Part shown: in pieces, positions 27 to 19,119 of the stretch
Layout: each line of letters starts with the position of its first letter
Numbering within the stretch: the stretch's first letter is position 1
DNA from: Gloeocapsa sp. PCC 7428
GTDB lineage: Bacteria > Cyanobacteriota > Cyanobacteriia > Cyanobacteriales > Chroococcidiopsidaceae
DNA length: 64,000 nucleotides
NCBI RefSeq assembly: GCF_000317555.1
Contig: NC_019745.1
Location: forward strand, 4,712,001-4,776,000
Direction: 5' to 3'
Notes under the pieces: generated by a model
The model's database searches: none
Seen by the model: only the letters and a program-made list of their open reading frames with translations
Told to the model about the DNA's origin: nothing
Program-made: the position numbers and the translations under genes

Positions 27-1571
27 CTAATGTCGGGCGTTTTGACAGTAGAAGGGATTGCAATGGCTGTGGTCTAGCCAACCATCGTAGAATTGTTTGA
101 CATAAGGAAAGACTTCTTGCGCTAGTACACAACGACGTTCTTCGGCGGGAGTTAGAGGGACTTTTAGTGAGTTTGCTAATTCTTCTAATGCTTCGGCTTT
201 ATCGACTTTGGTGAATTTGCCTTCTTTGTATATGACTTCTCCTGCAACTATGACTGTTTCTACTCCAGAAGTACGGCTGCGGTGGAGTACAGCATCTAAT
301 ATCGGAATTGCCCGATCTAAATATGGGTAGGCAATATGCTGCCAGTTCATGATGACGATATCTGCTGCTTTACCCGCTTCTATCGTGCCGATTTCATGGG
401 CGAATCCGGTTGTTTTTGCCCCGTGTTCGGTTGCCATTTGGAAGACTTGCGGTGATGTTGGTACTAATTCATCCATTCCAGGAACGCGATGCAATTTTAA
501 GACGAGGCGCATCTCTTGCAACATATCGCGATCGTCGTTGATTCCTGCTTCGTCTAACCCCATACCTACGGTGACACCGCGTTTGACGTAATGATTTAAA
601 GGCGCGATTCCACTTTGCAACCGCAGGTTAGAACTTGCGTTATGGCAAATCATTGTGCCTGATTCTGCGACTAAATCGATATCATCTTCGGTGAGCCAAA
701 CGCCGTGTCCTAGTGTAAGATGCGATCCGAGAATGCCTAAATCATGCAGGTGACGAACAGCAGTTTTGCCAGTGCGTTTTTGAGCATAAACTTTTTGGTA
801 TGCTGTTTCTAGTAGATGCATATGCATCCCAACGTCGTACTTTAAAGAGTAGGTTTGCAATTTCTCTAAAGCTTCGTCTGAACACCAATGCAAGTTAGCT
901 GGTGCAAGTTGAATGCGAATTCTTCCGTTTGCGCTGCGATCCCATTTTTGCCAGAGATGCTCGAAAAAGTTGAGGTAATCTTGTAGTGGGACTTCTTGCA
1001 CTTTGAGAATTGCGGCAATTTCTGGTGCGATATGTGCCGGTAGCTTTTTGACAAATTCCTCGTTTGCTTCGTAGACAAAGTGATTTTGATCGCGGACTGC
1101 AAAGCAATAAGACGATCGCATCCCAATGTCGTGATATGCTTGCAACACTTGATCCGCAATTCCTAACCACGTTGATGCAGGACCTGGACGCCAACCATGA
1201 ATGTGCTGTACAGTGGTGACTCCCGACTCGATCATCTCAAACGCGGAGTAGAGTGTATCGAGGTAGAGATCGACGTTTCGCGCTGCCAGGCGACTCGCAA
1301 ACCACAACTCTAAAGGGTAGTCGGGCGAACCGAGTTGAAATGGCGTCAGCCCTACGTGATGATGGCAGTTAATTAACCCAGGTAAAACGATATCTTCGGA
1401 TGAACCAATGATTTGATTAGGTCGATATTTCTCGCTGAGATCAGTGTATTTCCCAACTTCAATAATTTTGCCGTTTTGTTGAAAAATAGCGCCGTCTTCA
1501 ATAATTTCAACATCAGTTCTACTTAGCGCTTTGCAAATTACATATTTGCCACGAATTAATGATGAGTTCAT
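27..1571 (-). CDS. Amidohydrolase, cytosine/guanine-deaminase-like subgroup
   Basis: A 514-residue metal-dependent amidohydrolase of the AtzA/TrzN/guanine-deaminase-like group, expected to deaminate or hydrolyse a ring C-N bond in a nitrogen heterocycle in the cytoplasm. Visible metal ligands are the H70-x-H72 pair in NCHHHVG, a His in MHMHLLET, a His in LGHGVWL and an Asp in MGLDEAGINDD, so the active site looks complete. Length fits the family. It is the last gene of the minus-strand run racemase-like, hydantoinase, amidase, amidohydrolase, but a 446-bp gap separates it from the amidase, so it may have its own promoter. A second, diverged homologue lies at 17572-19119. The true substrate (guanine, 8-oxoguanine, a triazine or other) cannot be read from sequence. 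Confidence 0.88.
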   Translation of the reverse strand: MNSSLIRGKYVICKALSRTDVEIIEDGAIFQQNGKIIEVGKYTDLSEKYRPNQIIGSSEDIVLPGLINCHHHVGLTPFQLGSPDYPLELWFASRLAARNVDLYLDTLYSAFEMIESGVTTVQHIHGWRPGPASTWLGIADQVLQAYHDIGMRSSYCFAVRDQNHFVYEANEEFVKKLPAHIAPEIAAILKVQEVPLQDYLNFFEHLWQKWDRSANGRIRIQLAPANLHWCSDEALEKLQTYSLKYDVGMHMHLLETAYQKVYAQKRTGKTAVRHLHDLGILGSHLTLGHGVWLTEDDIDLVAESGTMICHNASSNLRLQSGIAPLNHYVKRGVTVGMGLDEAGINDDRDMLQEMRLVLKLHRVPGMDELVPTSPQVFQMATEHGAKTTGFAHEIGTIEAGKAADIVIMNWQHIAYPYLDRAIPILDAVLHRSRTSGVETVIVAGEVIYKEGKFTKVDKAEALEELANSLKVPLTPAEERRCVLAQEVFPYVKQFYDGWLDHSHCNPFYCQNARH

Positions 1572-2017
1572 GAGACTTTTGTCAATTCAATTTTTGAAGT
1601 AAGCTCAAGATTTTGCTAGTCTTCTTAAGAAGAAATTGAATCAATTCAAATATTGATGGTCACAACAAATTGAAGAAGGAAGATATGATTTCTTCTTATG
1701 TCATTAATAGCGATCGCTTGCTTTGTAGAATTCATCATAGTAGCTCGACGGGTGGCTTCAATCAGGATTGTTGCGCTAGCGTTATACAACGCTTTACCTA
1801 TAAGCTTTAGCCACGCCAAGCTAAGCTATTTCCTAGCTTAAAAGTCTTCTAATAAGAAAACTGTATCAGATAAAACAAGTTATTACTTTGCAACAATATC
1901 TATTAATTGGGTAATAGGTAATGGAAGATAGATGTTCTTCCCAATTACCAATGACCATTTACCAGCCTTAAGTTACGTTTATCACCCACTTTCTTATTAA
2001 TTGTATAAGTATCTTTA
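1572..2017. other. Intergenic gap, repeat-containing
   Basis: No gene is visible in these 446 bases. It holds an AT-rich leader for the downstream minus-strand amidohydrolase and, at about 1905-1963, a degenerate inverted repeat built from GGTAAT/ATTACC words (GGGTAATAGGTAATGG on one side, CCCAATTACCAATGACC on the other). The same words recur at about 5745-5795 and 41609-41625, so this is a dispersed element. No convincing promoter could be chosen. Confidence 0.5.
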
Positions 2018-3418
2018 CTAAAGCCAACGATAGCGAAAGTTTAATCTCTCTTGTAGTAAATAAGCAAATTGAAGTAACTCAGCTTCTCCTCTTGGTTTGC
2101 CGATTAATTGCATACCAATAGGTAAACCTGATGTTGTCCAACCACAGGGAATTGAAATAGCAGGTAAACCTGTTAATGAGATTGTGTAGGTAATTGTCAA
2201 GTAATCAATAATATTACGCAATGGAGTGTGATTGATTTCTAAAATCTCTGGTTGCGTGTGCAGAAATGGAGGAACACTGGCGCTGACGGTTGCAAGAATA
2301 TCGTACTTTTTGAAGAAGTTTAAGAAGTTAAGATATAGGCGATCGCGTTCGGCTTCTGCTTGTAAAAGATCGGCTGCTAAAATTCCCTTACCGCGTTCAA
2401 TATTCCAACGCACACTTTCTGAAAGGAGATCGGCGTACTTCGCGTAATGATGCTTTTGTTTGTGTAGTAATGTTGCAGCCCGCAGCGTCTCAAAGGCAAA
2501 TTGCGCCATTGAACAATCAGGATGCGCAGCATCTACCTGAGGACATAAACTTGTAATTTGTGCGATCGCACGTTGAAAAACTGCTTCAACTTCAGCATCA
2601 ATCGTGGCAATTCCTAAATTTGCACTGAAGCCAACACGTACGCTGTTTGGTAAGCGATCGCACGTCTGCGGTGAAAAATCTGGTCTATTCCATTGACTAC
2701 CTACCGATATTGGATCGCCCCAGTCTTCACCTGCGATCGCCGCCAGCATCAATGCAGCATCTTCGACTGTGCGCGCTAAAATTCCATCAGTATCTAAATA
2801 ATCCCACAGTAACATCTTGCGACGACGCGGAATCCGCCCAGCCGAGGGACGCAATCCCACAATGTTACAAAAGCTTGCCGGAGTTCGCACCGATCCACCC
2901 ATATCAGTGCCTTGGGCTAGGTAACACATTCCCGTTGCGACTGCGACAGCTGCGCCACCACTCGATCCACCACAAGTGTAATTGGGGTTGTAAGGGTTAG
3001 CCGTTGGTCCATAAAGTGAGTTTGTACAATGCGCACCTAATCCAAACTCTGGTGTATTTGTTTTACCGATTAAGATACCGCCACTAGATCGCGATCGCGC
3101 AATGCAAAGTTCATCGTGTTGGGGAACATAATCTTGATAAATTACTGAACCAAATGTTGTGCGCACCCCTGCCGTTGGCGTCAAATCTTTGGCTGTAAAA
3201 GGAACACCGTGTAAAATTTTGAATTGCCCTTGTTCAATCGCTGCATCAGCTTGCTTTGCTTCTCTTTGGGCGCGATCGCGACAAGTTGTTATGATTGCTT
3301 GAAGGCGATCGTTGTGTTGTTCAATTTGTTCAAAACACGCAGTCACTGCGTCAACAACGCGGATCTGCTTACTTTGAATTGCTTGCGCAAGTTCCGTGGC
3401 TGTTAACTGATGAATCAT
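2018..3418 (-). CDS. Amidase signature enzyme
   Basis: A 466-residue amidase-signature hydrolase (GatA/AtzE/urea-amidolyase-like fold) that cleaves a carboxamide to acid plus ammonia. The Ser-cisSer-Lys triad is intact: K77 in FTAKDLT, cis-Ser S152 in CGGSSGG and nucleophile S176 in MGGSVRTP. Full length for a stand-alone amidase. The neighbour at 27 bp upstream in transcription is the hydantoinase, so an N-carbamoyl or amide product of ring opening is a plausible substrate (inference from context). It could be misread as GatA of the glutamyl-tRNA amidotransferase, but the catabolic setting and absence of gatB/gatC argue for a catabolic amidase. Substrate is not predictable. Confidence 0.88.
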   Translation of the reverse strand: MIHQLTATELAQAIQSKQIRVVDAVTACFEQIEQHNDRLQAIITTCRDRAQREAKQADAAIEQGQFKILHGVPFTAKDLTPTAGVRTTFGSVIYQDYVPQHDELCIARSRSSGGILIGKTNTPEFGLGAHCTNSLYGPTANPYNPNYTCGGSSGGAAVAVATGMCYLAQGTDMGGSVRTPASFCNIVGLRPSAGRIPRRRKMLLWDYLDTDGILARTVEDAALMLAAIAGEDWGDPISVGSQWNRPDFSPQTCDRLPNSVRVGFSANLGIATIDAEVEAVFQRAIAQITSLCPQVDAAHPDCSMAQFAFETLRAATLLHKQKHHYAKYADLLSESVRWNIERGKGILAADLLQAEAERDRLYLNFLNFFKKYDILATVSASVPPFLHTQPEILEINHTPLRNIIDYLTITYTISLTGLPAISIPCGWTTSGLPIGMQLIGKPRGEAELLQFAYLLQERLNFRYRWL

Positions 3419-3445
3419 GAAATGAATTAGACTAATTCGTAATTA

Positions 3446-4894
3446 TCAATTCTCTCCTACGGGCAAGGCACTGCCTTGCCCCTGTTTGGGGCGGGCGAAA
3501 CTGGATAAACTACACGCTAAGAACTTACCGCGCCCTTTTAATGCAAAAACCTCGCCTTGCTGATAAACTATCTCACCCCGCGATATGGTTATTTCGGGAT
3601 AACCTTGTAGCGCGATACCTTCGTAAGGCGTGTAGTCTACGTTGTGGTGCAACATCTCGTTGGCGATTGTGACTTGTCGCTGCGTATCCCAAATTACTAA
3701 ATCTGCATCTGAACCAATTGCGATCGTGCCTTTTTGCGGATACAACCCGTAAAGTTTTGCGGGATTAGTTGCAGTTAAGGCAACAAAAGTATTTAAATCA
3801 ATACGTCCTTGATTCACACCTTCAGAAAATAGCAATGGTAATCGAGTTTCAATGCCAGGAATACCATTAGGAACGTACTGAAACGAACCGTGAGTGCCAC
3901 AAATTTGTTTACCTTGCGGATCGGCATAACGAAATGGTGCGTGATCTGAGGAGATGACTTGAAAGACACCGTTACACAAACCATCCCAAATCACCTGCTG
4001 ATTTGCTTTGTCGCGTGGCGGGGGACTACAAATACACTTTGCGCCTTCAAATTCAGGTTGATCTAAATCAGCTTCAGTCAGAAATAAGTATTGCGGGCAA
4101 GTTTCTGCATAGATGCGTAATCCACGATTTTGCGCCCATTGAATTTGCTCAACGGCTTCTGCGCCAGAAACATGGACAATGAGAATTGGTACGTCTACAA
4201 GTTCGGCTAAGGCGATCGCCCGATGTGTTGCTTCGCGTTCGACAACCTGCGGACGTGCTGTGGCATGATAGCGTGGAGAGATTTTACCGAGTTGTGCTAA
4301 TCGCTGTACCATCCAGGCGATGCAATCGCTGTTTTCTGCGTGAACCATCACAAACGCACCTTCTTGTCGCGCCACAGCTAAGACATCAAGTAAAGCGCGA
4401 TCGCTCAATTTCAGATCGTCATAAGTCATGTAAACTTTGAATGAGGTATAACCCTTCCCAATAAGTTCGGGGAGTTCCTCATCTAACACTTGCGGCGTAG
4501 GATCAGTGACAATCAAGTGAAACGCGTAATCAATCACTGCTTTGTCGGTAGCGCGTTGATGATAATCTTCCACTGCTGCCTTCAGTGAGTTTCCTTTCAT
4601 TTGACACGCAAAGGGAATCACCGTTGTTGTACCACCGCACAATGCTGAGAGTGTGCCAGTATAAAAATCATCTGCCATCACCGAACCGTCATTCATCGGT
4701 TGATCCATGTGACAATGCGCGTCAACACCACCAGGTAAAACGAGTTTATCGGTAGCATCAATTTCTTGCGTTCCCTTGGGAAGTTCTGCTGCAAGTGCGA
4801 CAATTTGCCCTTGACGAATGCCAATATCGCAATTCATCACATCCGCTGCTGTCGCTACCTTGCCATTACGAATGACTAAATCAAATTCTGTCAT
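3446..4894 (-). CDS. Dihydropyrimidinase / D-hydantoinase
   Basis: A 482-residue cyclic amidohydrolase of the hydantoinase/dihydropyrimidinase type, which opens hydantoin or dihydropyrimidine rings to N-carbamoyl amino acids. Binuclear metal-site residues are all present: H60-x-H62 in GGVDAHCHMDQP, carboxylated K153 in SFKVYMTYDD, H185 in MVHAENSD, H241 in LIVHVSG and D317 in ISSDHAPF. The family Tyr of the oxyanion hole is in VYMTYDD. The last 15 residues include GQGSALPV and are encoded by a palindromic dispersed repeat (3461-3481), so the C-terminus has been extended by repeat DNA. The racemase-like gene ends 5 bp upstream, a classical hydantoin racemase/hydantoinase pairing, and an amidase follows. 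Confidence 0.93.
   Translation of the reverse strand: MTEFDLVIRNGKVATAADVMNCDIGIRQGQIVALAAELPKGTQEIDATDKLVLPGGVDAHCHMDQPMNDGSVMADDFYTGTLSALCGGTTTVIPFACQMKGNSLKAAVEDYHQRATDKAVIDYAFHLIVTDPTPQVLDEELPELIGKGYTSFKVYMTYDDLKLSDRALLDVLAVARQEGAFVMVHAENSDCIAWMVQRLAQLGKISPRYHATARPQVVEREATHRAIALAELVDVPILIVHVSGAEAVEQIQWAQNRGLRIYAETCPQYLFLTEADLDQPEFEGAKCICSPPPRDKANQQVIWDGLCNGVFQVISSDHAPFRYADPQGKQICGTHGSFQYVPNGIPGIETRLPLLFSEGVNQGRIDLNTFVALTATNPAKLYGLYPQKGTIAIGSDADLVIWDTQRQVTIANEMLHHNVDYTPYEGIALQGYPEITISRGEIVYQQGEVFALKGRGKFLACSLSSFARPKQGQGSALPVGEN
3461..3481. repeat. 21-bp palindrome inside the hydantoinase 3' end
   Basis: Perfect palindrome with arms GGGCAAGGCA and TGCCTTGCCC around one base. Read on the minus strand in the gene's frame it encodes GQGSALPV. 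Related copies lie at 36213-36233 (non-coding) and 45614-45634 (inside a permease gene, same reading frame). Confidence 0.9.
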
Positions 4895-4899
4895 ATGCC

Positions 4900-5634
4900 C
4901 TACTTACCAACTGAATGCGAGAATAAACTACCCCATCCCTCAATGCAGCTAGCATCAACACCAGCTATACAAAGTGATTTCCAAACGGCTGCTGCAACGG
5001 TGTCGTAGATTGGAATACCAAGTTCTTTTTCTAAGTCATTCACTAGCGGCGCAGCCCGCAAATTAGTACAAAAAATCAGAATGGCTTGCGGTTGTTCCGC
5101 CGCTACAGTGCGAATCATCGACGTTAGCTTATCTGCGGTAACTTCTGAAAAATCAAAGTTGACTGATAAATTGAGATGTTGCTCAGCAATACAATGAAAC
5201 CCTGCTTCGGCAAAGTTGATGATAATGCGTTCTTGGACATCGGTAAGGTATGGTGTAACAAGTCCAAACTTGGTGATGTGGCGCGATCGCAAAATTTCGA
5301 GAAGTGCTAACACCGAAGTTGTTGCCGGAATTTTTGTCACTTCTGTAATCTGCTGACACAGTTGTACATCAGCCTCAAACCCTAGCCAACCTGCGGATGT
5401 GCCATTCCAGGCGATCGCATCCACTTTAGCATCAGCTAAAAGTTGTGCAGTATCAACGAGTGGCTTGTTGTCAAACTGCTGTAACGCTTGCTCTCGCAAC
5501 GATATCTCTGTAACGCGAAACCGCCCAAAATGTGCCGAGACTTCAGGCAGCATACTCACCATAGCACTCGTTACCGGTTCGAGAACGGTGTTAGAAGAAG
5601 GAGTGAGCATTCCTAAAAGAACTCGCTTAGCCAT
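4900..5634 (-). CDS. Asp/Glu racemase superfamily, arylmalonate-decarboxylase/maleate-isomerase-like
   Basis: A 244-residue member of the Asp/Glu/hydantoin racemase superfamily. The N-terminal TPSSNT motif matches maleate cis-trans isomerases. The first catalytic Cys position instead reads NGTS (G78-T79-S80), as in arylmalonate decarboxylase, while the second Cys is kept (C189 in LIFCTN). With one cysteine, two-base racemisation is unlikely; decarboxylation or isomerisation is more plausible (inference from known AMDase and maleate isomerase chemistry). It sits first in the minus-strand hydantoinase-amidase operon, 5 bp before the hydantoinase start. It may therefore act on an acid released downstream in the pathway, or be a diverged hydantoin racemase. 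Confidence 0.8.
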   Translation of the reverse strand: MAKRVLLGMLTPSSNTVLEPVTSAMVSMLPEVSAHFGRFRVTEISLREQALQQFDNKPLVDTAQLLADAKVDAIAWNGTSAGWLGFEADVQLCQQITEVTKIPATTSVLALLEILRSRHITKFGLVTPYLTDVQERIIINFAEAGFHCIAEQHLNLSVNFDFSEVTADKLTSMIRTVAAEQPQAILIFCTNLRAAPLVNDLEKELGIPIYDTVAAAVWKSLCIAGVDASCIEGWGSLFSHSVGK

Positions 5635-5887
5635 GCATGACTCGCAATAAATCTAAAACAATACTAGTGATGCGATGCTCAGTAAGTAAAAAACTAAAGT
5701 GTAAGTAAGTGGGTAAGAATAAACATAACTTAAGGGCTGGTAACTGGTAATTGGTAATTGGTCAAATAGTATCTATTACCCCTTACCCAATAAATGTCAA
5801 GTGTGATGTTTAATTATGCCCGCCTACTTACTACGAAAATATTTACTCTGAATTTTTGCACAAGGTTGCATGAAATTATCAAATCAC

Positions 5888-5895
5888 TGTATACA
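5888..5895. promoter_or_regulatory. TGTATACA palindrome, candidate GntR operator
   Basis: Perfect 8-bp palindrome TGTATACA in the shared context ACTGTATACAA. The identical 11-mer recurs at 16281-16292, between the divergent ATPase and fifth binding-protein genes. FadR-subfamily GntR proteins typically bind short palindromes with a GT-N-AC core. Binding by the adjacent regulator is inference. Confidence 0.5.
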
Positions 5896-5913
5896 AGAAT
5901 AATGATAAGAACT

Positions 5914-5955
5914 GTATCGCAAAGTACATTTAATTAATTCGTAATTATCTACTCT
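5914..5955 (+). promoter_or_regulatory. NtcA-type activated promoter
   Basis: GTA-TCGCAAAG-TAC (5914-5927) is an exact GTA-N8-TAC NtcA box. Twenty-two bases later, TACTCT (5950-5955) fits TAN3T, the -10 of NtcA class II promoters. The orientation is toward the GntR gene. The -10 lies in sequence that partly recurs near 3432-3450, so chance or repeat origin cannot be excluded. Confidence 0.5.
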
Positions 5956-5978
5956 CCCTGCCAAGCGGCTTAAAATGT

Positions 5979-6020
5979 AAAGTCCCCCTACAGGTGGGGG
6001 ATTTAGGGGGCGAGAAGCTT
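5979..6020. repeat. G-rich dispersed element, copy 1
   Basis: AAAGTCCCCC, a short spacer, then GGGGGATTTAGGGGGC and AAGCTT. A near-identical block is at 30268-30307. It can fold by pairing CCCCC with GGGGG. It lies in the leader of the GntR gene and explains why in-frame codons here should not be read as the protein N-terminus. Confidence 0.8.
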
Positions 6021-6098
6021 TGTATAGAAATTACAAATTATATTGACGTTAAATTAGGAAAAGTACTAAAGACCGTCCGCTACACAGGAGATGTAAGA

Positions 6099-7118
6099 TT
6101 GACCTCTCAATTACCACAACGTAGTAAGCCGCTATACGAACAGACATATCTAGCCTTGCGCTCAGCAATTTTATCAGGTGAGATTTCTGTAGACGAGCGA
6201 CTTATTGAAAGTCAACTTGCACAGCGCTTTCAAGTAAGTAGAACTCCAGTACGCGAAGCGATTCGCCGCTTACAGCAGGAAAATTTACTAGCGTCGGATA
6301 GTGATGGGGCATTGTGCATTACTAAGCTTTCGTTGCGGGATGCCATTAAACTCTACGATTGTCGAATTGCGCTAGAACAGCTAAGTGTTGTAGGAGCCTG
6401 CGAAAACGCTACCACTGAACAGTTAAAGGCAATTGAGCAAACACTTATCCAAGCTGAGAACTTAGCGCAGCAAGGACACAAGCAATTGCAAGATGAACTA
6501 CTCGATCTTAATTTTGACTTTCATCGTTTAATTGCCGAAAGTTCAGATAATCCTTGGTTAGTGCCGCTGTTGGATCATCTATCAAATCATACCCGACTTT
6601 TGAGAACTCAAACATTACAAGCCGAACCTGACATTACAAATATCCACAGCGAACATCGACAAGTGTATGAAGCGATCGCCCATCATGATGTACCAGCCGC
6701 CGTAAAATATATTACGCATCATCTCACCGCAAGCCAGCAGCGAATTATAGAAATATTTGAGCGATCGCATTTAACAACATTGTCAGCAGAAATGATTCCG
6801 CAGCAAGAAGCGCTACAATGCCCTCGGTGTTTGTCTTTTGAGGTAAGCCGTAACGGACGGCGTATGGGTAAGCAAGGTTATATTTGTAAGCAGTGCGGAC
6901 GGCAGTTTCTTGCTACTTATGAATCATCTCGCTACTCAGCAGAAATTCGCGAGAAGTGCATAGTTTTACACAATAACGGCATAGGATTTCGCGAAATTGA
7001 GCGCATGACGGGCGTTAATCATAATACGATTATTCGCTGGGTAAAATCTGCCCCACATAAAGCTTATAAAAGCAATTATAGTAGAGGTCAGGAATCAGAG
7101 GTCGGGAGTCAGGGTTAA
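6099..7118 (+). CDS. GntR/FadR-type regulator fused to an IS1 InsA-like zinc-ribbon/HTH module
   Basis: I place the start at TTG 6099 because AGGAG (6086-6090) sits 8 bases upstream; the open frame extends back to GTG 5994 but only through repeat DNA. From that start the protein has 339 residues. Residues 10-75 are a GntR winged helix (VSRTPVREAIRRLQ), and 80-222 an FCD ligand domain with FH at 141-142, SEH at 184-186 and HH at 207-208 as likely metal ligands. Residues 241-320 carry a zinc ribbon (C241, C244, C263, C266) and the helix MTGVNHNTIIRWVK, which look like the N-terminal part of IS1-family InsA. The last residues are encoded by a dispersed repeat. It probably controls the surrounding transport/catabolic genes. 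Confidence 0.85.
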   Translation: MTSQLPQRSKPLYEQTYLALRSAILSGEISVDERLIESQLAQRFQVSRTPVREAIRRLQQENLLASDSDGALCITKLSLRDAIKLYDCRIALEQLSVVGACENATTEQLKAIEQTLIQAENLAQQGHKQLQDELLDLNFDFHRLIAESSDNPWLVPLLDHLSNHTRLLRTQTLQAEPDITNIHSEHRQVYEAIAHHDVPAAVKYITHHLTASQQRIIEIFERSHLTTLSAEMIPQQEALQCPRCLSFEVSRNGRRMGKQGYICKQCGRQFLATYESSRYSAEIREKCIVLHNNGIGFREIERMTGVNHNTIIRWVKSAPHKAYKSNYSRGQESEVGSQG

Positions 7119-7479: not shown

Positions 7480-8097
7480 TCATCCGTGATTCCCCAAGAA
7501 AAACAACTCACCAATCTTGGTATATTCCACCGCACCGCCCAACCGCGTAATTGGCTTCATGCGGACAGTATCGACTAATCCCATTTCAGGACGATACAAG
7601 TCTTCGCGTACGTGAAAGCGTAAAACACGACCTAACACCATAACATTAGTAGCGCCTTCCACAGCAACAATCTGCGTGACTTGACACTCCATCGCCACCG
7701 CAGCATCAGCAATCCGCAACGGCTGCACATCAGTTGCTGGAACAGTGGCGAGTTGCGCAACTTCAAATTCATTCACCCCATAAGGTAAATCAACAGCGGT
7801 TTCAATCATCGCGTTTGCCATTGTCTCATCAACAATATGACAAACAAACTCCTTAACTTCGCGTACATTGCGCAACGTATCTTTTTCCTTGGGTTCTTTC
7901 GTTTGGCGATACGAAACCGAGAACATGATTGTTGGGGGAAAACCCGCAACCGCATTGAAAAACGAATAAGGGGCAAGATTCGGCTTACCATCTTGACTCA
8001 TTGTGGACACCCATGCGATCGGACGCGGTGCAACAATGCTCGTGAGTAAATGATAAGGAGCGCGAGGCTCCATTTCTTCAGGCACAAACGAAAGCAT
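7480..8097 (-). CDS. Flavin reductase-like (FMN-binding split barrel) protein
   Basis: A 205-residue protein of the flavin reductase/DIM6-NTAB family. The core VAPRPIAWVSTMSQDG followed by NLAPYSFFNAV is the usual FMN-binding segment of this fold (about residues 22-55). Such proteins bind FMN and either reduce free flavin for a partner monooxygenase or carry out their own flavin chemistry. No monooxygenase is adjacent, so the partner, if any, is elsewhere. Its start codon shares one base with the stop of the upstream binding protein, which implies translational coupling and places it last in the minus-strand transport operon. A role in oxidising the imported heterocycle is inference. Confidence 0.85.
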   Translation of the reverse strand: MLSFVPEEMEPRAPYHLLTSIVAPRPIAWVSTMSQDGKPNLAPYSFFNAVAGFPPTIMFSVSYRQTKEPKEKDTLRNVREVKEFVCHIVDETMANAMIETAVDLPYGVNEFEVAQLATVPATDVQPLRIADAAVAMECQVTQIVAVEGATNVMVLGRVLRFHVREDLYRPEMGLVDTVRMKPITRLGGAVEYTKIGELFFLGNHG

Positions 8098-11488: not shown

Positions 11489-12571
11489 TTAAATTTTTAC
11501 CTCTCGATCAAAACGCTCAATCCAAGCTGAACGATTAGGGTTAATCGCTTGCCAATCTGGAATAAAAACTACTTCATCTAAGCGATCGCTCGGACTTTTC
11601 CCCAGCTTTTGCGCGAGTTCTTCTGGAATCGGCGCGTCTTGGTGCGTGGGAACAAAGTTATAAGGTGGCTGCGCCACCGCACTTTGCACTTCTAACGAAA
11701 GTGCTGTATCAATGTAAGCTGCTGCAAGTTCTGTCGCGCCTGAGTTTTTGACAATTTGCAAGGAGGAACTCGATGAAGCTAGTTCTTCGGTAGGAGCAAC
11801 CCACTCAACACTGGCTCCTTTGCCGCGAATGCCGCTAATATAGTCGAACCAATGCGGCGCGATATCGATTTCACCCTGTTGTAAAAGTGTTGCTAAACTT
11901 CCAGGATTGGGAGCAACCGCAGCCAGATTCGGACGAAGTTGCGCTAACTTGCGAAATGCACCTTCCGCATCATTTTCACTTCCTCCCTCTAACCGCGCCA
12001 GTTCGACAAAAAACGTCGTTCCCAACCCGCTTTCTAACGAAGGAATCCCGACGCGATCGCGATACTCTGAATTCCATAGTTCTAATAGCGATCGCGGTGG
12101 ATTTTTAATTCGTTCGGGATTATAAGCAATTCCCAAAACTTGCGACGCTACCATCGGCGCTAATGCTTGATTGCGATACTGCGGCAAAATATTGGCATAA
12201 TTTTGACTCGTCGCTTGCGGAAATTCTTGCAGAACGCCTTCGGCATTTGCCATAAACATTGGTCCTTCAGGAATTAAAATGACGTCATACGGCGGTTGCT
12301 GACGCGCTGCAATCACTTTGGCAACGGCTTCTAAACCTGGTTCGGAAATCACTCGCACGTTAACGTTATGCGCTTTTGTAAATGAACTTGCAAGTTCGCG
12401 ACGATGCCCTTCTTCCCAGGAACCACCATAGGTTGTCACAATTAATTCGCTTGTACTTGATACCGAATTTGACGCATTTTGACAGCCCTTTAATATCAAA
12501 CTAGAACCAATAAAAAGTCCTGCACCAAGCACAGTGCGGCGAGTCATTTTAGTGGTTAGTACGTGAGACAT
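11489..12571 (-). CDS. ABC transporter substrate-binding protein 2 (PotD-like, Tat lipoprotein)
   Basis: A 360-residue periplasmic binding protein. The twin-arginine signal TRRTVLG, hydrophobic core and lipobox LILKGC (Cys about residue 30) indicate Tat export and lipid anchoring. The internal motif LLQQGEIDIAPHW and the C-terminal WIERFDREV are shared with its four paralogues. It is translated just ahead of the PotB-like permease (1-bp gap), the canonical place for the principal binding protein. The upstream gap of 196 bp holds GNAG hairpins that separate it from binding protein 3. Ligand unknown; divergence among the paralogues suggests different but related ligands. Confidence 0.88.
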   Translation of the reverse strand: MSHVLTTKMTRRTVLGAGLFIGSSLILKGCQNASNSVSSTSELIVTTYGGSWEEGHRRELASSFTKAHNVNVRVISEPGLEAVAKVIAARQQPPYDVILIPEGPMFMANAEGVLQEFPQATSQNYANILPQYRNQALAPMVASQVLGIAYNPERIKNPPRSLLELWNSEYRDRVGIPSLESGLGTTFFVELARLEGGSENDAEGAFRKLAQLRPNLAAVAPNPGSLATLLQQGEIDIAPHWFDYISGIRGKGASVEWVAPTEELASSSSSLQIVKNSGATELAAAYIDTALSLEVQSAVAQPPYNFVPTHQDAPIPEELAQKLGKSPSDRLDEVVFIPDWQAINPNRSAWIERFDREVKI

Positions 12572-12767: not shown

Positions 12768-13868
12768 TCAAACTTGCACTTCGCGATCAAACCGCTCAAT
12801 CCAAGCCGTACGCTGTTTATTAATGGCGTTCCAATCAAGGAGTACCAATTTATCTAAAACTTCTTCTGAGTTATTCCCTAGCTTTTGTGCCAACACACCT
12901 GATAAGACAACATTGCGATTAGAAGGTAAAAAGTAATAAGGCTCCGATGCCATCGCAGTTTGCACGTCAACACTCAGCGCAGTATCAATAAACGCCGCCG
13001 CTAGTTCTGGATCGACACTTGTATTTCTGACGATCTGCTGCGCGGGACGCAAGGCGATTCCGCCTTCTTGAGGCATTACCCAATCAACATTGACACCACG
13101 CGATCGCAGCGCCACAACATTATTCAAATCGTGTGGTGCTAAATCAATTTCCTCTTGCTGAAAAAGTGTCGCTAAAGCTCCTGCATTTGCAGCAATTCCT
13201 GTTAAATTTGGTTTTAAATCTTGAAGTGCGGCAAACGCTGGCTCAATATTTGTTTCATCTCCGCCGCGCATTTTCGCAATTTGTACCATCAAAGAAGTTC
13301 CTTGAGTCGTTTGCATTCCTTGCATCGATACGCGATTGCGATACTTGGAATCCCACAGATCTTCCCAAGACGTCGGCGGCGTTGCCACTGTTTTAGGATT
13401 ATAGGCAATACCCATAACTTGAACGCCTGTTGTTGGTGCCCAACCAGCAGGATTTTGCAACTCTGGTAAGACATCGGCGTAATTTTGAATTAAATTAACA
13501 TCAGGCTTGACAAATAACTGCTCTTGTGGGGCAGCATTAAACGGTCCTTCATCAAGTAAAACAATATCAAACGGCGGATTATTAGGCGATGCAGTGAGTT
13601 GCGCGACTTGCTCTAGCGACACCATTGGCACTAAGCTAACCTCGCCTCCATGCGCTTTGGTGAAAGCCGGAATCAGAACATTGCGATAAAACTGTTCCCA
13701 GCTACCCGCGAAGCACGTAGCAATAATTCTCCCACCTGTATTACTGTCACTCGTTGCCGTTGTTCCACCACAAGCTTTCAGAACGAGACTTGTCCCTGCA
13801 AATAAACTTGTTCCTAGCATGGCTCGACGACTCATGACGAGCATTCGGCGGTTCAGCATAGTTTTCAT
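12768..13868 (-). CDS. ABC transporter substrate-binding protein 3 (PotD-like, Tat lipoprotein)
   Basis: A 366-residue binding protein with an N-terminal SRRAMLG twin-arginine motif and a lipobox LVLKAC (Cys about residue 33). The middle reads LFQQEEIDLAPHDLN and the C-terminus WIERFDREV, both shared with the paralogues. Its start overlaps the end of binding protein 4 by 4 bases, so translation of 4 and 3 is coupled and both products should be made together. This direct tandem of two binding proteins without a permease between them points to duplication and specialisation. Confidence 0.88.
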   Translation of the reverse strand: MKTMLNRRMLVMSRRAMLGTSLFAGTSLVLKACGGTTATSDSNTGGRIIATCFAGSWEQFYRNVLIPAFTKAHGGEVSLVPMVSLEQVAQLTASPNNPPFDIVLLDEGPFNAAPQEQLFVKPDVNLIQNYADVLPELQNPAGWAPTTGVQVMGIAYNPKTVATPPTSWEDLWDSKYRNRVSMQGMQTTQGTSLMVQIAKMRGGDETNIEPAFAALQDLKPNLTGIAANAGALATLFQQEEIDLAPHDLNNVVALRSRGVNVDWVMPQEGGIALRPAQQIVRNTSVDPELAAAFIDTALSVDVQTAMASEPYYFLPSNRNVVLSGVLAQKLGNNSEEVLDKLVLLDWNAINKQRTAWIERFDREVQV

Positions 13869-14953
13869 ACCGTGATTTCTCGGTTAAAACGCTCAATCCA
13901 TTGCGATCGCTGTTGAGAGATCGTTGCCCAATCTTGATAGATAAACTTTTCGTACTCGTCAAAATCGGTAGCAATCTTTTCAGCAAGCACACCCTGAAGT
14001 GGCGCATTTTTGTTGACTGGAGCAACATAGTACGGCGCTTGTGCCATCGCAGTTTGCACTTCGGTACTCAAAGCCGTATCAATATAAGCGGTTGCCAATT
14101 CCACGCTTGATGTGGGATTTTTCACAACGTGCATCGACGCACCAAACGCATAACTTCCTTCGCGAGGAATCACCCATTCCACATCAACGCCTTTATCTTG
14201 CAATACGGCAATGCTGCTAAGATTGTGCGGCGCAATATCAACTTCCCCTTGCTGAAACAGCGTTGATAAAGCACCTGGATTGGCGGCGACGGCGGCTAAA
14301 TTGGGTAACAACTCTTGCACCGCTTGAAAGGCTGGTTCAATATTTGTTTCACTTCCGCCATTCATTTTGGCAATCTCGACCATCCAACCTGTCCCCAGGC
14401 TACTATTCATATTGGGAATTCCAACACGACCTCGATACTGTGACAACCACAAGTCTTTCCACGAAGCTGGTGGAGTTGTAATTTTCTTTGGGTTATAGGC
14501 AATTCCCACAAACTGTAGTCCGACAATTGGTTCCCAGTTGCCAGTATCTGTCCCTTGATAGCGTGGTAGAACGTCTGCAAAGTACTGACTTAAATTTGCA
14601 GGAAACGGTTGTAGAATGTCTTGTTTAGGTGCAGTAATTAACGGATCTGGATCGAGCATTGCGGTATCAAACGGCGGATTTATTGCTGATGCTTGCAAAC
14701 GCGCAACCTGATCGACGGCTAAAAGAGGAACTAACGTCACGTCGGCTCCTCTTGCTTTCTTAAAAGGTGTTACTAAAATACTCCGGTGGGCATCTTCCCA
14801 GTTACCAGGATAAGTTGCGGCGACTAAACTTCCTGCGGGCGATGAATCACTGCTTCCCTGTGATTGAGCGCTACACGAGCCTAATCCTGTCATCGCCATA
14901 CCTGTCATAAAACTTGCGCCTAGAAATGTGCGGCGCTTCATGCGATGATTCAT
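13865..14953 (-). CDS. ABC transporter substrate-binding protein 4 (PotD-like, Tat lipoprotein)
   Basis: A 362-residue binding protein. The signal contains KRRTFLG and a lipobox-like GLGSC (about residues 24-28), and the signal core (MTGMAMTG) differs from the FAGTSLLLK type of paralogues 3 and 5. The shared motifs LFQQGEVDIAPHN and WIERFNREI are present. It is the first binding-protein gene after the ATPase, 59 bp downstream of it, and its stop overlaps the start of binding protein 3. Periplasmic lipid-anchored ligand capture is inferred from family; the ligand is unknown. Confidence 0.88.
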   Translation of the reverse strand: MNHRMKRRTFLGASFMTGMAMTGLGSCSAQSQGSSDSSPAGSLVAATYPGNWEDAHRSILVTPFKKARGADVTLVPLLAVDQVARLQASAINPPFDTAMLDPDPLITAPKQDILQPFPANLSQYFADVLPRYQGTDTGNWEPIVGLQFVGIAYNPKKITTPPASWKDLWLSQYRGRVGIPNMNSSLGTGWMVEIAKMNGGSETNIEPAFQAVQELLPNLAAVAANPGALSTLFQQGEVDIAPHNLSSIAVLQDKGVDVEWVIPREGSYAFGASMHVVKNPTSSVELATAYIDTALSTEVQTAMAQAPYYVAPVNKNAPLQGVLAEKIATDFDEYEKFIYQDWATISQQRSQWIERFNREITV

Positions 14954-15012
14954 ATATTTAATTCGGTTGAATAACCAGGCGATCGTTAGTTACTGAGAAT
15001 ATGTCATTCCGC

Positions 15013-16158
15013 TCAACTTACTGCGGGAAACAATGCACAAGCTTGCGGCGATGCAAGTTCCAGATAAATTTGCTGTCCTTGTTGCAGCGGACGCGATCCT
15101 GGAAGGCGCGGTTGTGTCACCTTAACTTTCGTGTTCGGTGCGATTTGCACTTCGTACGCCATCACAGCCCCTAAAGGTAAACACATTTCTACAATGGTTG
15201 GTAGAGAATGCGTAGTAGGTTGCGTTTGAATCCGCAAGTTTTCCGGTCGAACAGCAAGCAAGACATCGTTATGCGATTGCAATGTATCGTGATTTGCAAC
15301 TCGTAGTTTTCCGCCGCCTGGAACTTCTACTAGGCAATCTAAAGTATCGCGTTCGACAAGTTTACCTGGTAGAAGGTTACACGTACCAACAAAGGTGCTA
15401 ACAAACAGTGTGGCAGGTTGGTCGTAGATTTGACTTGGAGTATCGAATTGATGAATTGTTCCCTGCGACATGACTGCAATGCGATCCGACATACTCATTG
15501 CTTCTTCTTGGTCGTGAGTCACTAGAATCGCTGTAATTCCTTGTTCGCTTAATAGGCGGCGAATTTCAATTTGCATATCGAGGCGCAGATTTTTATCTAA
15601 CGCGCTGAAAGGCTCATCTAAAAGCATGAGTTTCGGTTCTACGGCTAAAGCACGCGCGATCGCAACTCGCTGTTGTTGTCCGCCAGATAATTCACTCGGA
15701 TAACGCTTGGCAAGATGACTTAGTTGCACAAGTTCGAGCATCTCGCCAACTTTATTAGCAACTCTACCACGCGGCACTCGGTTAGCACGCAATCCATACG
15801 CCACGTTGTCCCAAACCGTCATGTGGGGAAACAAGGCGTAGTTTTGAAAGACAATTCCTACACCCCGCTGCTTGGGTGAAAGTGCGCCTACCGATTGACC
15901 ATCGATCAGAATTCTGCCAGAAGTTGGTTTGAGAAAGCCAGAGATAATTCGCAGTAGCGTTGTTTTACCGCAACCACTTGGACCAAGCAGCGAGACAAAT
16001 TCACCTGGTTGAATATTCAGATGAATATCTTGCAGCGCCACCATGTCTCCAAAACGATGCACGATCTCCTCAAGCGCTAAGCTATGACCAGAGTAATCTT
16101 CGCTAGCTCGAACTGGAACAGGGCTGGTAACTAAGTCAATATGCTTCACCGATTCCAT
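15013..16158 (-). CDS. ABC transporter ATP-binding protein, PotA-like
   Basis: A 381-residue importer ATPase. Walker A GPSGCGKTT, the Q-loop VFQNYALFPHMTV, the signature LSGGQQQRVAIARAL, Walker B LMLLDEPFSALD and the switch His in VTHDQEEAMSMSD are all intact (about residues 58-235). A TOBE-type regulatory domain follows (about 280-375). It is the first gene of the minus-strand transport operon and the only ATPase in the island, so it should energise the two PotB/PotC-type permeases. A plausible promoter (TTGCAA, 18-bp spacer, TATAAA on the minus strand) lies just upstream. Confidence 0.93.
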   Translation of the reverse strand: MESVKHIDLVTSPVPVRASEDYSGHSLALEEIVHRFGDMVALQDIHLNIQPGEFVSLLGPSGCGKTTLLRIISGFLKPTSGRILIDGQSVGALSPKQRGVGIVFQNYALFPHMTVWDNVAYGLRANRVPRGRVANKVGEMLELVQLSHLAKRYPSELSGGQQQRVAIARALAVEPKLMLLDEPFSALDKNLRLDMQIEIRRLLSEQGITAILVTHDQEEAMSMSDRIAVMSQGTIHQFDTPSQIYDQPATLFVSTFVGTCNLLPGKLVERDTLDCLVEVPGGGKLRVANHDTLQSHNDVLLAVRPENLRIQTQPTTHSLPTIVEMCLPLGAVMAYEVQIAPNTKVKVTQPRLPGSRPLQQGQQIYLELASPQACALFPAVS

Positions 16159-16178
16159 GTGTTTGTACTTAAGTAGGG

Positions 16179-16208
16179 TTTATATCAGCGTCGCAATATA
16201 ATTTGCAA
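16179..16208 (-). promoter_or_regulatory. Candidate promoter of the PotA-like gene
   Basis: Read on the minus strand: TTGCAA (16203-16208), an 18-base spacer, then TATAAA (16179-16184), ending 20 bases before the ATG at 16158. This leaves a short leader. The match to the -35/-10 consensus is good but rests on sequence alone. Confidence 0.45.
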
Positions 16209-16283
16209 TAATTCGACATCTTACTTTGTGCTGATTTTGTGGACGTTTAAAAGAGATATTAAACTAATGATTGACTAGGATAC

Positions 16284-16291
16284 TGTATACA
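16284..16291. promoter_or_regulatory. TGTATACA palindrome, second candidate GntR operator
   Basis: Same 8-bp palindrome and flanks (ACTGTATACAA) as at 5888-5895. It sits in the 330-bp divergent gap between the ATPase operon and the fifth binding protein, where one bound regulator could control both directions. Confidence 0.5.
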
Positions 16292-16488
16292 AAAAAGCAT
16301 GATGTATCACAGATAACAAAATTTTCAGCGTTATTGAGCGATAAACAAATTGCGTGCAGCGTACAGCAATAACGAAGTGTGAATGTCAACCGTTGCGATC
16401 GCAAATTGACTCTGAACAAATCATTACTAACTTTCCTGCTGCCAAGCTGTATCTTCATGCTTACTTTGAATCGCTCAGCAAACGACTT

Positions 16489-17568
16489 ATGTCTGATTTA
16501 ATCCGGATGTCGCGTCGCGCTTTTTTGGGGGCTGGACTTTTTGCAGGAACAAGCTTACTGCTCAAAGGTTGTGGTGGGAATGAAGCATCGCAAGGCAATG
16601 GTGGTAGACTTGTTGCCGCAACTTTTACCGGAAGTTGGGAAGAAGCACATCGCACGATTTTAGTGCCTTACTTTGCCCAAAAAATCGGAGCTACAGTTAA
16701 CTTAGTACCACAATTAGCGATTGACCAAGTTGCACAACTCACAGCATCAGCCAATAGCCCTCCGTATGATGTGACGCTTTTAGATGAAGGACCATTTCGC
16801 AATGCTCCAGTAGAGCAAATTTTACAACCGTTTCCCGTTGACCTCAGTGAAAACTTTCAAGATCTGTTACCGCAGTATCAAACAAAAGCGGATCAATGGG
16901 GACCTACTATAGCTGTTCAAGCAATTGGTATTGGTTATAATACTGAACGCATTTCCACACCACCGACATCGTGGGAAGATTTATGGAAGCCAGAATATGC
17001 AGGTCGTCTTGGGCTTGTGAGTATGCAAAGTACGGTGGGAACGGCTTTTATGGTACAACTTGCGCGGATGCGCGGCGGTGGTGAAAACAATATTGAACCT
17101 GCTTTTGAGGCAATTCGTGAAATTTTACCCAACGTCGCAGCGGTTGCGTCTAATCCTGGTGCGCTTTCGGTTTTGTTTCAACAAGGTGAAATTGATATCG
17201 CCCCGCATTATTTAAATAATATGGCTCCGCTCACAGCCGCAGGAACTCCAGTCGATTGGGTTGTGCCGCAAGAAGGCGCATTACTGATTAGCCCATCAAT
17301 GCACGTTGTCAGGAATCCCAGAGAGCGCGAACTCGCTGCTGCATATATTGATGCCGCAATTAGCCCTGAGGTGCAAACACAAATGGCTTCAGCACCTTAT
17401 TATTTTGTACCAACGAATAGCAAAGCTCAAATTTCCGGTTTCATTGCCGAAAGACTAGGTAATACAACCGAGGCGGTTGTTGATAAGCTTATTCCTCTCG
17501 ATTGGCAAACAATTAGTAAAAACTTGCCAACATGGATTGAACGCTTCAACCGTGAAGTTGTGGTTTAA
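16489..17568 (+). CDS. ABC transporter substrate-binding protein 5 (PotD-like, Tat lipoprotein)
   Basis: I place the start at ATG 16489 (359 residues, MSDLIRMSRRAFLG), because this puts the twin-arginine signal at the N-terminus as in the paralogues; the frame stays open back to 16354. The lipobox is LLLKGC (Cys about residue 29). Shared motifs are LFQQGEIDIAPHYLN and the C-terminal WIERFNREV. It is divergent from the ATPase and 3 bp ahead of the second amidohydrolase, an arrangement that ties this binding protein to that enzyme's substrate. No strong Shine-Dalgarno precedes either possible start. Confidence 0.86.
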   Translation: MSDLIRMSRRAFLGAGLFAGTSLLLKGCGGNEASQGNGGRLVAATFTGSWEEAHRTILVPYFAQKIGATVNLVPQLAIDQVAQLTASANSPPYDVTLLDEGPFRNAPVEQILQPFPVDLSENFQDLLPQYQTKADQWGPTIAVQAIGIGYNTERISTPPTSWEDLWKPEYAGRLGLVSMQSTVGTAFMVQLARMRGGGENNIEPAFEAIREILPNVAAVASNPGALSVLFQQGEIDIAPHYLNNMAPLTAAGTPVDWVVPQEGALLISPSMHVVRNPRERELAAAYIDAAISPEVQTQMASAPYYFVPTNSKAQISGFIAERLGNTTEAVVDKLIPLDWQTISKNLPTWIERFNREVVV

Positions 17569-17571
17569 CAA

Positions 17572-19119
17572 ATGAGCATTTCGGCAAAAACGGATAAGTT
17601 GCTCGTCAAAAATGCTTTGGTGCTAGCATCAGGGGATGCCTTGGCGCGATCGCATACAGATATTTTGATTGATAAGGGGACAATTGTCGCAGTTGCTGCG
17701 AATTTAGCGATTCCTCCAGGCTATACCGTCATTGATGCAACAGGGCTATTGGTAACTCCTGGGTGGATTAATGGACACTTTCATTCGCACGAACATTTTC
17801 ATAAAGGACGATTTGACAACTTACCGCTTGAGTTGTGGATGCACTTTGTCCGCCCGCCAGTTGCACCGCCACCGCTAACGCCAGAGCAAGTATATCTGCG
17901 CACGATGATCGGCGCGATCGAAGCGATTCGCACAGGGGCAACGTTTGTTGTTGATGATGTCAATCATGCTCCCCATTTTTCTATGGAGTGTATTGATGCG
18001 GTTTTTCAAGCTTATGAAGATATTGGATTACGTGCATTAGTGAGCGTGAGCCTTTACGATTTACCGTTTTACCGTGCAGTACCTTTCTTTGATGAAGAAA
18101 TGCCAGTTCATCTGCGCGAACAACTCGATCGCCAAGCATTACCCGATCGCGATCGCCTCTTAACTATTGCACAACATCTCGCACAAACGCGCCACCCAAA
18201 TCAACATCGCGTCGGATATATCGTTGCACCCTCAGCACCGCAGCGTTGTAGTAAATCTTTCCTGGTTGAGCTTGAGAAACTCGCAAAAGCATACAATCTG
18301 CCTGTAATGCTGCATTTACTCGAAACGCGTTTACAAGCGGTTACAGGTCAATTATTTTACCAGCGTTCGATGACCGAGTATTTAGCCGATTTGGGTTTTT
18401 TAAGCGATCGCGTTGCTTTGCAACATTGTGTTTGGCTGACACCGCATGATGTAGAACTTATTGCTGAATCGGGAGCGAGTGTTATTTACAATCCACTATC
18501 TAACCTCAAACTTGGTAGCGGTAGAATGGCGGTGCGGGCAATTCAAGCCGCAGGAGTCAACATTGCGCTTGCGAGTGATGGCTGTGGATCGCGAGATAGT
18601 CTGAATATGCTTTCTGTTGTACAGGCGGCAGCGATGCTCAACAAATCACCGACAATTGCTCCAGAACACTGGATTTCTGCCGAAGAAGTCTTTGAGTTTG
18701 CAACAATAGGTGGGGCTAAAGCCTTTGGCGTTGAGCAACTTGGAAAAATTGCCCCTGGCTACAAAGCTGATTTTGTCGGCTACCGACTCGATGCGCTATC
18801 TTTTGTACCGTTGAATCATCCATTACGGCAACTCGTGTATGCAGAAACAGGTGCTGCTGTTGATTTAGTTGTCGTCGATGGCGTTGCTGTTATGCGCGAC
18901 GGTAAGCTAACTCAAGTTAACGAGCAAGCTTTAATTGAAGCAATCTGCAAAGTACATCATCAGATTTTACCTGCAATCCAAGCCTCTGAAGCAACGGTAC
19001 AAACTTTTTTACCCTACTACCGTCGAATTTACGATCGCTGCTTATCCCAAACCGTCGATCCAGCAATTCTCACTCCTGATAATCAATCCTCTCCTATCGA
19101 CATGTATCGTACTGAATAA
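17572..19119 (+). CDS. Amidohydrolase, cytosine/guanine-deaminase-like, second copy
   Basis: A 515-residue metal-dependent amidohydrolase, homologous over its length to the one at 27-1571 but diverged. The HxH pair is H69-x-H71 in NGHFHSHEHFH; further ligands are in VMLHLLETR, LQHCVWLTPHD and LASDGCGSRD. The N-terminal beta domain (residues 1-60) and metal site are complete, and the length fits the subgroup. It is cotranscribed with binding protein 5 (3-bp gap), so it probably acts on what that protein captures. Deamination or hydrolysis of a cyclic C-N bond is expected from the family; the exact substrate is open. Confidence 0.88.
   Translation: MSISAKTDKLLVKNALVLASGDALARSHTDILIDKGTIVAVAANLAIPPGYTVIDATGLLVTPGWINGHFHSHEHFHKGRFDNLPLELWMHFVRPPVAPPPLTPEQVYLRTMIGAIEAIRTGATFVVDDVNHAPHFSMECIDAVFQAYEDIGLRALVSVSLYDLPFYRAVPFFDEEMPVHLREQLDRQALPDRDRLLTIAQHLAQTRHPNQHRVGYIVAPSAPQRCSKSFLVELEKLAKAYNLPVMLHLLETRLQAVTGQLFYQRSMTEYLADLGFLSDRVALQHCVWLTPHDVELIAESGASVIYNPLSNLKLGSGRMAVRAIQAAGVNIALASDGCGSRDSLNMLSVVQAAAMLNKSPTIAPEHWISAEEVFEFATIGGAKAFGVEQLGKIAPGYKADFVGYRLDALSFVPLNHPLRQLVYAETGAAVDLVVVDGVAVMRDGKLTQVNEQALIEAICKVHHQILPAIQASEATVQTFLPYYRRIYDRCLSQTVDPAILTPDNQSSPIDMYRTE

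Follow-up and report, generated by a model that had tools for sequence, protein, structure and literature searches.

A GntR-controlled gene island of Gloeocapsa sp. PCC 7428 that may serve the uptake and catabolism of cyclic ureides or related nitrogen heterocycles

What might a cyanobacterium import and degrade with a PotABC-type importer that is encoded together with five binding proteins and a set of hydrolases from ring- and amide-opening families? This question is raised by positions 27-19119 of a 64-kb stretch of DNA from Gloeocapsa sp. PCC 7428 (G000:C1:4712001-4776000, hereafter the window), whose 5.88-Mb genome (G000) is marked as cyanobacterial by three PsaA/PsaB genes above cut-off. 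Positions refer to the window unless a locus label precedes them. An earlier note on this DNA had listed two diverged amidohydrolases, an amidase, a hydantoinase, a racemase-superfamily enzyme, an HIU-hydrolase-like protein, a flavin-reductase-like protein and five binding proteins around one PotABC importer, and had proposed a scavenging pathway for cyclic ureides. All of these genes are present, and with a GntR regulator (5994-7118) that was missing from that list the island comprises 16 genes. On balance, it probably encodes a system, controlled by the GntR regulator, that imports and breaks down one or more cyclic ureides or similar amide-rich nitrogen heterocycles as a source of nitrogen. 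The cyclic ureides are suggested because HYD is a hydantoinase, because of the company that the genes keep elsewhere (PuuE-like, M20, carbon-nitrogen hydrolase and urate genes) and because the PotD polyamine ligands are absent from the binding proteins. In support of this reading stand the genes themselves and their conservation, the operator-like sites of the two divergent promoters, the intact metal ligands of HYD and the recurrence of the modules in Proteobacteria; that all island genes belong to one single pathway is a further step, which we infer.

AHY1, AMI, HYD and RAC run leftward and are followed by the divergent GNTR gene; FLR, SBP1, HIUH, POTC, POTB, SBP2, SBP3, SBP4 and POTA again run leftward and are followed by the divergent pair SBP5-AHY2. 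The gaps measure 5 bases between HYD and RAC, 27 bases between AMI and HYD and 3 bases between SBP5 and AHY2. A NitT/TauT ABC importer (binding protein, permease and ATPase) adjoins AHY1 to the left of the window (L029 16935-19775). The features of the island are as follows.

27-1571, minus strand: AHY1, amidohydrolase (cog0402/TRZ-ATZ/SAH-deaminase-like; no equivalog); best NCBIfam match 233.8 bits against a cut-off of 522
2018-3418, minus strand: AMI, amidase-signature hydrolase; Pfam Amidase 349.8 bits, PRK07486 379 against a cut-off of 465
3446-4894, minus strand: HYD, cyclic amidohydrolase of the D-hydantoinase/dihydropyrimidinase family; above two NCBIfam cut-offs
4900-5634, minus strand: RAC, Asp/Glu-racemase-superfamily protein with a single predicted catalytic cysteine (AMDase-type Gly78/Cys189); conserved residues and family match
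5887-5896, no strand: CTGTATACAA, operator-like, in the promoter region between the divergent RAC and GNTR genes
5914-5927, no strand: NtcA-like GTAN8TAC site between RAC and GNTR; match to a presumed consensus
5994-7118, plus strand: GNTR, regulator of the GntR-FCD type with a fused IS1 InsA-like zinc-ribbon/HTH domain at residues about 275-358; the start is probably near 6099
7480-8097, minus strand: FLR, flavin-reductase-like FMN protein; Pfam Flavin_Reduct 82.3 against 27
8097-9206, minus strand: SBP1, solute-binding protein
9244-9594, minus strand: HIUH-like transthyretin-family protein without the catalytic arginine; TIGR02962 81.1 against a cut-off of 87.45
9783-10628, minus strand: POTC, ABC permease
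10639-11487, minus strand: POTB, ABC permease
11489-12571, minus strand: SBP2, solute-binding protein
12768-13868, minus strand: SBP3, solute-binding protein
13865-14953, minus strand: SBP4, solute-binding protein
15013-16158, minus strand: POTA, ABC ATPase; TIGR01187 348.6 against a cut-off of 355.6
16283-16292, no strand: second copy of CTGTATACAA, in the promoter region between the divergent POTA and SBP5 genes
16489-17568, plus strand: SBP5, solute-binding protein; start set at the first ATG of the open reading frame (ORF) 16354-17568 that begins the conserved part
17572-19119, plus strand: AHY2, amidohydrolase (cog0402-like; no equivalog); best NCBIfam match 246.3 against a cut-off of 617

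HYD exceeds the NCBIfam cut-offs of PRK13404 (800.1 against 647) and of TIGR02033, the D-hydantoinase model (575.6 against 393.25), and its residues H60, H62, K153, H185, H241 and D317 are identical in all 78 aligned homologues. We take these residues to be the metal ligands of the family, i.e. the HxH motif, the carboxylated lysine, two histidines and an aspartate. Judged by its sequence, HYD is a true enzyme of the hydantoinase/dihydropyrimidinase family with intact metal ligands. The two enzymes that would accompany a hydantoinase in reductive pyrimidine catabolism, dihydropyrimidine dehydrogenase and beta-ureidopropionase, are not encoded in the island; this search was confined to its 16 proteins.

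The gene next to HYD encodes RAC, in which N15, G78, T79, S80, Y129, N159, C189 and T190 are identical in all 94 homologues and whose nearest solved relatives are AMDase and maleate isomerase. A structure-based alignment places G78 of RAC at Gly74 of AMDase and at the position that the first cysteine has in maleate isomerase, and C189 at that of the second cysteine. With maleate cis-trans isomerase RAC thus has in common the superfamily, the second cysteine and the asparagine at position 159, but it differs in the first catalytic cysteine, which is Gly78 in every one of the 94 proteins. Since RAC retains one catalytic cysteine, its reading as a two-cysteine racemase is not supported: the superfamily assigned in the earlier note stands, the racemase activity that the name implies does not, and we rejected both a hydantoin racemase and a maleate isomerase. 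A cyclic-imide degradation route (imidase, half-amidase and maleate isomerase) was set aside for the same missing cysteine. For AMDase, the part of PMC4996985 available to us names G74 and C188, a dioxyanion hole of T75, S76, Y126 and G189, and a pocket formed by L40, V43, Y48, V156 and M159. Compared with the Bordetella bronchiseptica type of enzyme described there, RAC keeps the equivalents of Gly74, Thr75, Ser76, Tyr126 and Cys188, but Gly189 is replaced by Thr190, Val156 by Asn159 and Met159 by Phe162, and motifs 11 and 12 differ; the pocket positions L40, V43 and Y48 fall outside the structural alignment. RAC reaches 79.7 against the cut-off of 225 of the NCBIfam AMDase model and passes the wider Pfam Amdase model (80.8 against 25.9). 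A plain AMDase was not accepted because the equivalents of G189, V156 and M159 differ. By its conserved residues, RAC is a single-cysteine enzyme of the AMDase/maleate-isomerase branch, for which a decarboxylase activity is possible.

The regulator GNTR passes the Pfam cut-offs of GntR (56.9 against 27) and FCD (87.8 against 24.3), and its C-terminal part matches the IS1 InsA-like model NF050000 (43.1 against a cut-off of 28), the Pfam InsA models remaining below cut-off. Among the matches listed from 243 genomes of the order, full-length GntR-InsA fusions are confined to the five genomes with the island, the remaining rows covering one of the two halves. All five genomes have an intact fused ORF, and the ratio of nonsynonymous to synonymous substitution rates (dN/dS) of the InsA part is 0.12-0.19 in the three pairs tested. 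This part looks like a transposase DNA-binding domain that has been kept by the regulator.

Both divergent promoter regions of the island carry the operator-like sequence CTGTATACAA, at 5887 and 16283; these two copies compare with 0.04 expected in 64 kb. The 8-mer TGTATACA likewise occurs in the window only at these two promoter regions, although such an 8-mer is no rarity by itself (two copies are reached in 19 of 100 shuffles), and both sites with their TGTATACA core are kept in the four island-bearing relatives G001, G002, G010 and G014. In three Azospirillum plasmids, and in two copies in the cyanobacterial genome G022, TTGTATACAA is found in the gap that separates the GntR gene from its neighbour; Paraburkholderia (L130) and Caballeronia (L137) also have it close to GntR and RAC. 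In the 79 loci listed from a RAC scan of genome contigs (best 80 rows), to which all counts out of 79 refer, three perfect copies compare with 0.24 expected from base composition. The operator-like sequence may be the operator of GNTR. A second, NtcA-like site is found in the RAC/GNTR region, GTAN8TAC being presumably the NtcA consensus. Together with a -10-like box at a fixed distance, the pattern occurs four times in the window against 0.28 expected, two of the four being the RAC/GNTR site counted once on each strand. By itself, GTAN8TAC shows no significant excess (14 against 8.6 expected, with 6 of 100 shuffles reaching 14). The core of the site is kept in all five genomes.

A neighbourhood search in other cyanobacteria, which the earlier note had proposed as a check, recovered the gene order of the island in two genomes of the same genus (G001 and G002) and two of the same family (G010 and the partly broken G014). 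NITA follows AHY1 in G001, G010 and G014, and NitT genes stand beside AHY1 in these three and in G000; the stretch of G002 does not cover that side. The binding-protein content varies between the genomes: SBP4 has no close match in the islands of G001 and G002, SBP5, like AHY2, has none in the fetched stretches of G010 and G014, and the latter two encode a further SBP3-like protein. An extra amidase lies beside FLR or in its place in G002, G010 and G014. The island of G014 (L034) is decaying, with SBP1, HIUH and SBP3 in pieces, SBP4 partial and FLR unmatched. For the orthologous pairs with G001, G002 and G010, dN/dS is 0.02-0.19, the exception being HIUH with 0.21-0.28; this comparison omits the paralogue matches (SBP4 against G001 and G002; SBP5 and AHY2 against G010) and G014. 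The conserved gene order and the low dN/dS indicate that the grouping exceeds chance. In the more distant G022, which belongs to another family, only the transporter part with FLR is present (SBP1-POTA-SBP3-FLR-POTB-POTC), beside a GntR gene.

POTB at no less than 81% identity was found in 6 of 120 near relatives, the own genome included, FLR at a minimum of 77% in 3 of 386 genomes of the phylum, one of which (G216) lacks the island neighbours, and RAC at E values up to 1e-40 in 1 of 386, which is a sample figure only because the sample does not show the four island-bearing relatives. Other named cyanobacteria with RAC are Leptolyngbya sp. BL0902, Phormidium tenue FACHB-886, Vasconcelosia minhoensis and Phormidesmis priestleyi Ana. 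The RAC tree allows, with weak support (73/45), a placement of the nine cyanobacterial rows on one side of a branch among proteobacterial rows, and eight of the nine form a supported set (98/80); a single origin of RAC in cyanobacteria is possible on this tree.

Outside the cyanobacteria the genes recur as modules. In 62 of the 79 loci, HYD (at least 50% identity over at least 300 residues) and RAC are no more than 300 bases apart; in 5 more the two lie within about 7 kb, and L082 has a piece of HYD of only 49 residues; clustering of the neighbouring ORFs was left unused because of shadow ORFs in GC-rich DNA. Searches of plasmids with RAC, the HIUH-like protein and POTB converge on the same nine Azospirillum records, within 14 kb, which are not nine independent cases since all come from one genus. 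Plasmid p2 of Azospirillum brasilense MTCC4039 (NZ_CP032347, L072) combines, all within 25 kb, a GntR gene, a NitT importer, an amidohydrolase, RAC (59%), HYD (67%), AMI (50%), POTA (52%), a binding protein (48%), POTB (50%), POTC (52%) and an HIUH-like gene (53%). It differs from the island in that it has a single Pot-type binding protein where the island has five, lacks an FLR match and a visible InsA-type fusion, and has an amidohydrolase that is nearer to AHY2 (29%). We know of no function for this locus. A plasmid of Salipiger sp. CCB-MM3 (NZ_CP014599, L159) holds a NitT importer, AHY1 (49%) and AHY2 (38%) in a row, with a Pot-type importer, an amidase, a racemase-family gene and a GntR gene; in contrast to the island, it has a PuuE-like gene of the polysaccharide-deacetylase family and no HYD or FLR match, its importer and amidase are only 26-43% identical, and RAC is unmatched by tblastn at 1e-15. 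Another version of the module is seen on pRL10 of Rhizobium johnstonii 3841 (L160), where AHY2 (51%), RAC (52%), an AHY1-like gene (31%), a GntR gene and a DUF3830 gene stand in a row that adjoins an amino-acid-type importer and a RidA-family gene.

AHY1 relatives (at least 49%) stand beside NitT/TauT genes in five of the six plasmid loci viewed, namely those of Paraburkholderia, Burkholderia, Sodalis, Salipiger and Methylobacterium, and not in that of Leptolyngbya; a match on a Klebsiella oxytoca plasmid (H110) is outside this count. As for further company, PuuE-like genes occur in the G022, Vasconcelosia, Phormidesmis and Salipiger loci (the PuuE cut-off being passed only in G022), polysaccharide-deacetylase-family genes in the Methylobacterium AHY1 locus, an M20 enzyme of the hydantoinase/carbamoylase family (394.9 against 204) in the Phormidesmis locus and nitrilase-type carbon-nitrogen hydrolases next to AHY1 in three loci.

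Several of these observations weigh against the uptake and catabolic system proposed above. HYD is absent from 11 of the 79 loci, including the closest cyanobacterial relatives (L078, L079 and L088), and the palindrome, even with one mismatch allowed, is missing from many related loci (e.g. L070, L079, L080, L129, L143, L159, L160, L161 and L164). AHY1, AHY2, AMI and RAC match known superfamilies, and neither they nor the HIUH-like protein reach an NCBIfam cut-off; no close homologue is characterised, and the substrate assigned here is a prediction. An N-carbamoylase of known type is absent from the island, AMI being only a candidate for this role. Finally, the RAC-HYD, NitT-AHY1 and PotABC-AHY2 modules stand apart in many loci, which brings in the main rival explanation, possible though less likely, that independent scavenging modules (NitT-AHY1, RAC-HYD-AMI and PotABC-SBP-AHY2) have been gathered at one place, act on different compounds under partly shared control and form no single pathway. 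Consistent with this, RAC-HYD without POTB or NitT is the commonest arrangement among the 79 loci, POTB (at least 40%) occurring in 12 (10 of them also with AHY2), NitT genes in 16 and both together (NitT ATPase at least 45% identical) only in L150; Sodalis (L158) and Paraburkholderia (L157) have AHY1-NitT but no RAC, and the reduced set of G022 and the varying binding proteins point the same way. It is opposed by the operator-like sites at both divergent promoters and by the joint occurrence of RAC, HYD, AMI, NitT and POT genes in Azospirillum and of AHY1, AHY2, NitT, POT, amidase and racemase-family genes in Salipiger.

A different substrate is suggested by the importer itself, whose best family matches are the PotA/B/C and PhnS/T models. 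All of these matches are below cut-off, however, and in an alignment of the five binding proteins, which are 38-53% pairwise identical, the positions of PotD D168, E171 and D257 are occupied by M/L, T/V/G/S and P/Y/S/A, so that no acidic residue is left in any of the five. These three residues we assume to be the polyamine ligands of PotD. As the enzyme genes moreover travel with the importer in Azospirillum and Burkholderiales, an importer of polyamines or 2-aminoethylphosphonate with unrelated neighbours is hardly credible, and polyamine import was rejected as the leading interpretation. A second NitT/TauT-type ABC importer, which lies inside the window (53461-56934), encloses an isochorismatase-family amidase (BiuH 90.3 bits against a cut-off of 370) and is perhaps another small unit for scavenging amide nitrogen.

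The HIUH-like protein raises the alternative that the island takes part in urate or purine degradation with this protein as HIU hydrolase. It belongs to the HIUH family according to Pfam, its histidine pair is kept (the H8 and H98 columns are invariant in the alignment), and related genes lie near urate-catabolism genes in Defluviimonas (puuE, uraH, puuD and uraD); in Paracoccaceae La 6 the related gene immediately follows one whose product is annotated as a uric-acid-degradation protein. In kpHIUH, Arg41 polarises the carbonyl of the substrate, as stated in the part of PMC8272043 available to us. However, the catalytic arginine is replaced in all six aligned members of the subfamily from cyanobacteria and Azospirillum (Leu, Thr, Ala, Gln, Gln and Val), and the C-terminal YRGS has become FRGG in the island protein, with the tyrosine and serine lost in all six. 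Of all island genes it shows the highest dN/dS; its match in G002 covers residues 1-93 only, and in G014 the gene is split. The genome has, 0.57 Mb from the island, a canonical HIU hydrolase that keeps the arginine (125 against a cut-off of 87.45). It is encoded beside HpxO (619.2 against 500) and also beside a xanthine permease (434.9 against 414.15), these three forming the urate locus L040 1908-9357 (G000:C1 5.28 Mb), and the genome also encodes PuuE (552.6 against a cut-off of 424.6) and an OHCU decarboxylase, whose neighbouring ORFs resemble, by eye, xanthine dehydrogenase subunits. The classical urate-to-allantoate pathway thus shares with the island the ureide chemistry and the host genome, but its genes lie at 2.90, 3.97 and 5.29 Mb as compared with 4.71 Mb for the island. 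In the part of a paper on marine bacteria available to us (PMC11698098), a second HIUH homologue is likewise set aside as having another function. Urate catabolism through the island protein was therefore rejected and is very improbable; of the HIU-hydrolase-like label, the family and the histidine pair stand and the catalytic residues do not. A trimethyl-HIU hydrolase, as in the C-8 oxidation of caffeine, was also considered for the island protein. In L078 the only HIUH-like gene found is of the island type, and a NitT/TauT-type importer adjoins the urate locus L040.

For the remaining enzymes the evidence is at the level of motifs. AHY1, which shares 29% identity with AHY2, carries the HxH, His, His and Asp motifs, and AMI the Lys and Ser-rich motifs. 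An isoxanthopterin or pterin deaminase was considered for AHY1 and AHY2, for which a search of the open-access literature gave nothing useful. FLR has no NCBIfam match and passes only the cut-off of the Pfam superfamily; its nearest solved relatives are component B of NTA monooxygenase and a 2-nitrobenzoate nitroreductase.

If the island is indeed a system for cyclic ureides or related heterocycles, the five binding proteins would feed one PotABC importer with related nitrogen-rich solutes, and the neighbouring NitT importer would serve AHY1. AHY1 and AHY2 might hydrolytically remove exocyclic amino or similar groups, HYD would open the ring and AMI could cleave the resulting amide or carbamoyl group. 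RAC, with its one cysteine, may deprotonate, protonate or decarboxylate the ring-opened acid, and the released ammonia would enter assimilation. The scavenging of cyclic ureides that the earlier note had proposed is hence the reading we prefer, on the strength of HYD, the neighbouring genes elsewhere and the missing PotD ligands, whereas its single pathway is put in question by modules that also occur apart. More speculatively, RAC-HYD, AHY-type deaminases and AMI could constitute an undescribed cyclic-ureide pathway shared by Burkholderiales, Azospirillum and a few cyanobacteria: HYD would open the ring, and the one-cysteine RAC would then carry out a cofactor-free step (decarboxylation or deprotonation/protonation). 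In the cyanobacterial family this pathway would have come under the control of a regulator that had acquired a transposase DNA-binding domain.

In the open-access literature searched, as far as the texts were available in part, neither this gene set in cyanobacteria nor the RAC-HYD pair was found described, subscription papers and preprint servers lying outside the search. Close relatives of the island are found mainly in soil Proteobacteria. Caution is called for with two labels of automatic annotation, 'racemase' in the case of RAC and 'hydroxyisourate hydrolase' in that of the island's transthyretin-family protein. The occurrence and putative metabolic function of AMDases are little known according to the part of PMC4996985 at hand, and the conserved RAC-HYD pair would, if our reading is true, provide a metabolic setting in which to seek the natural substrate of an AMDase-like enzyme. 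Some cyanobacteria would then scavenge organic ring nitrogen by means of an island otherwise known from soil Proteobacteria.

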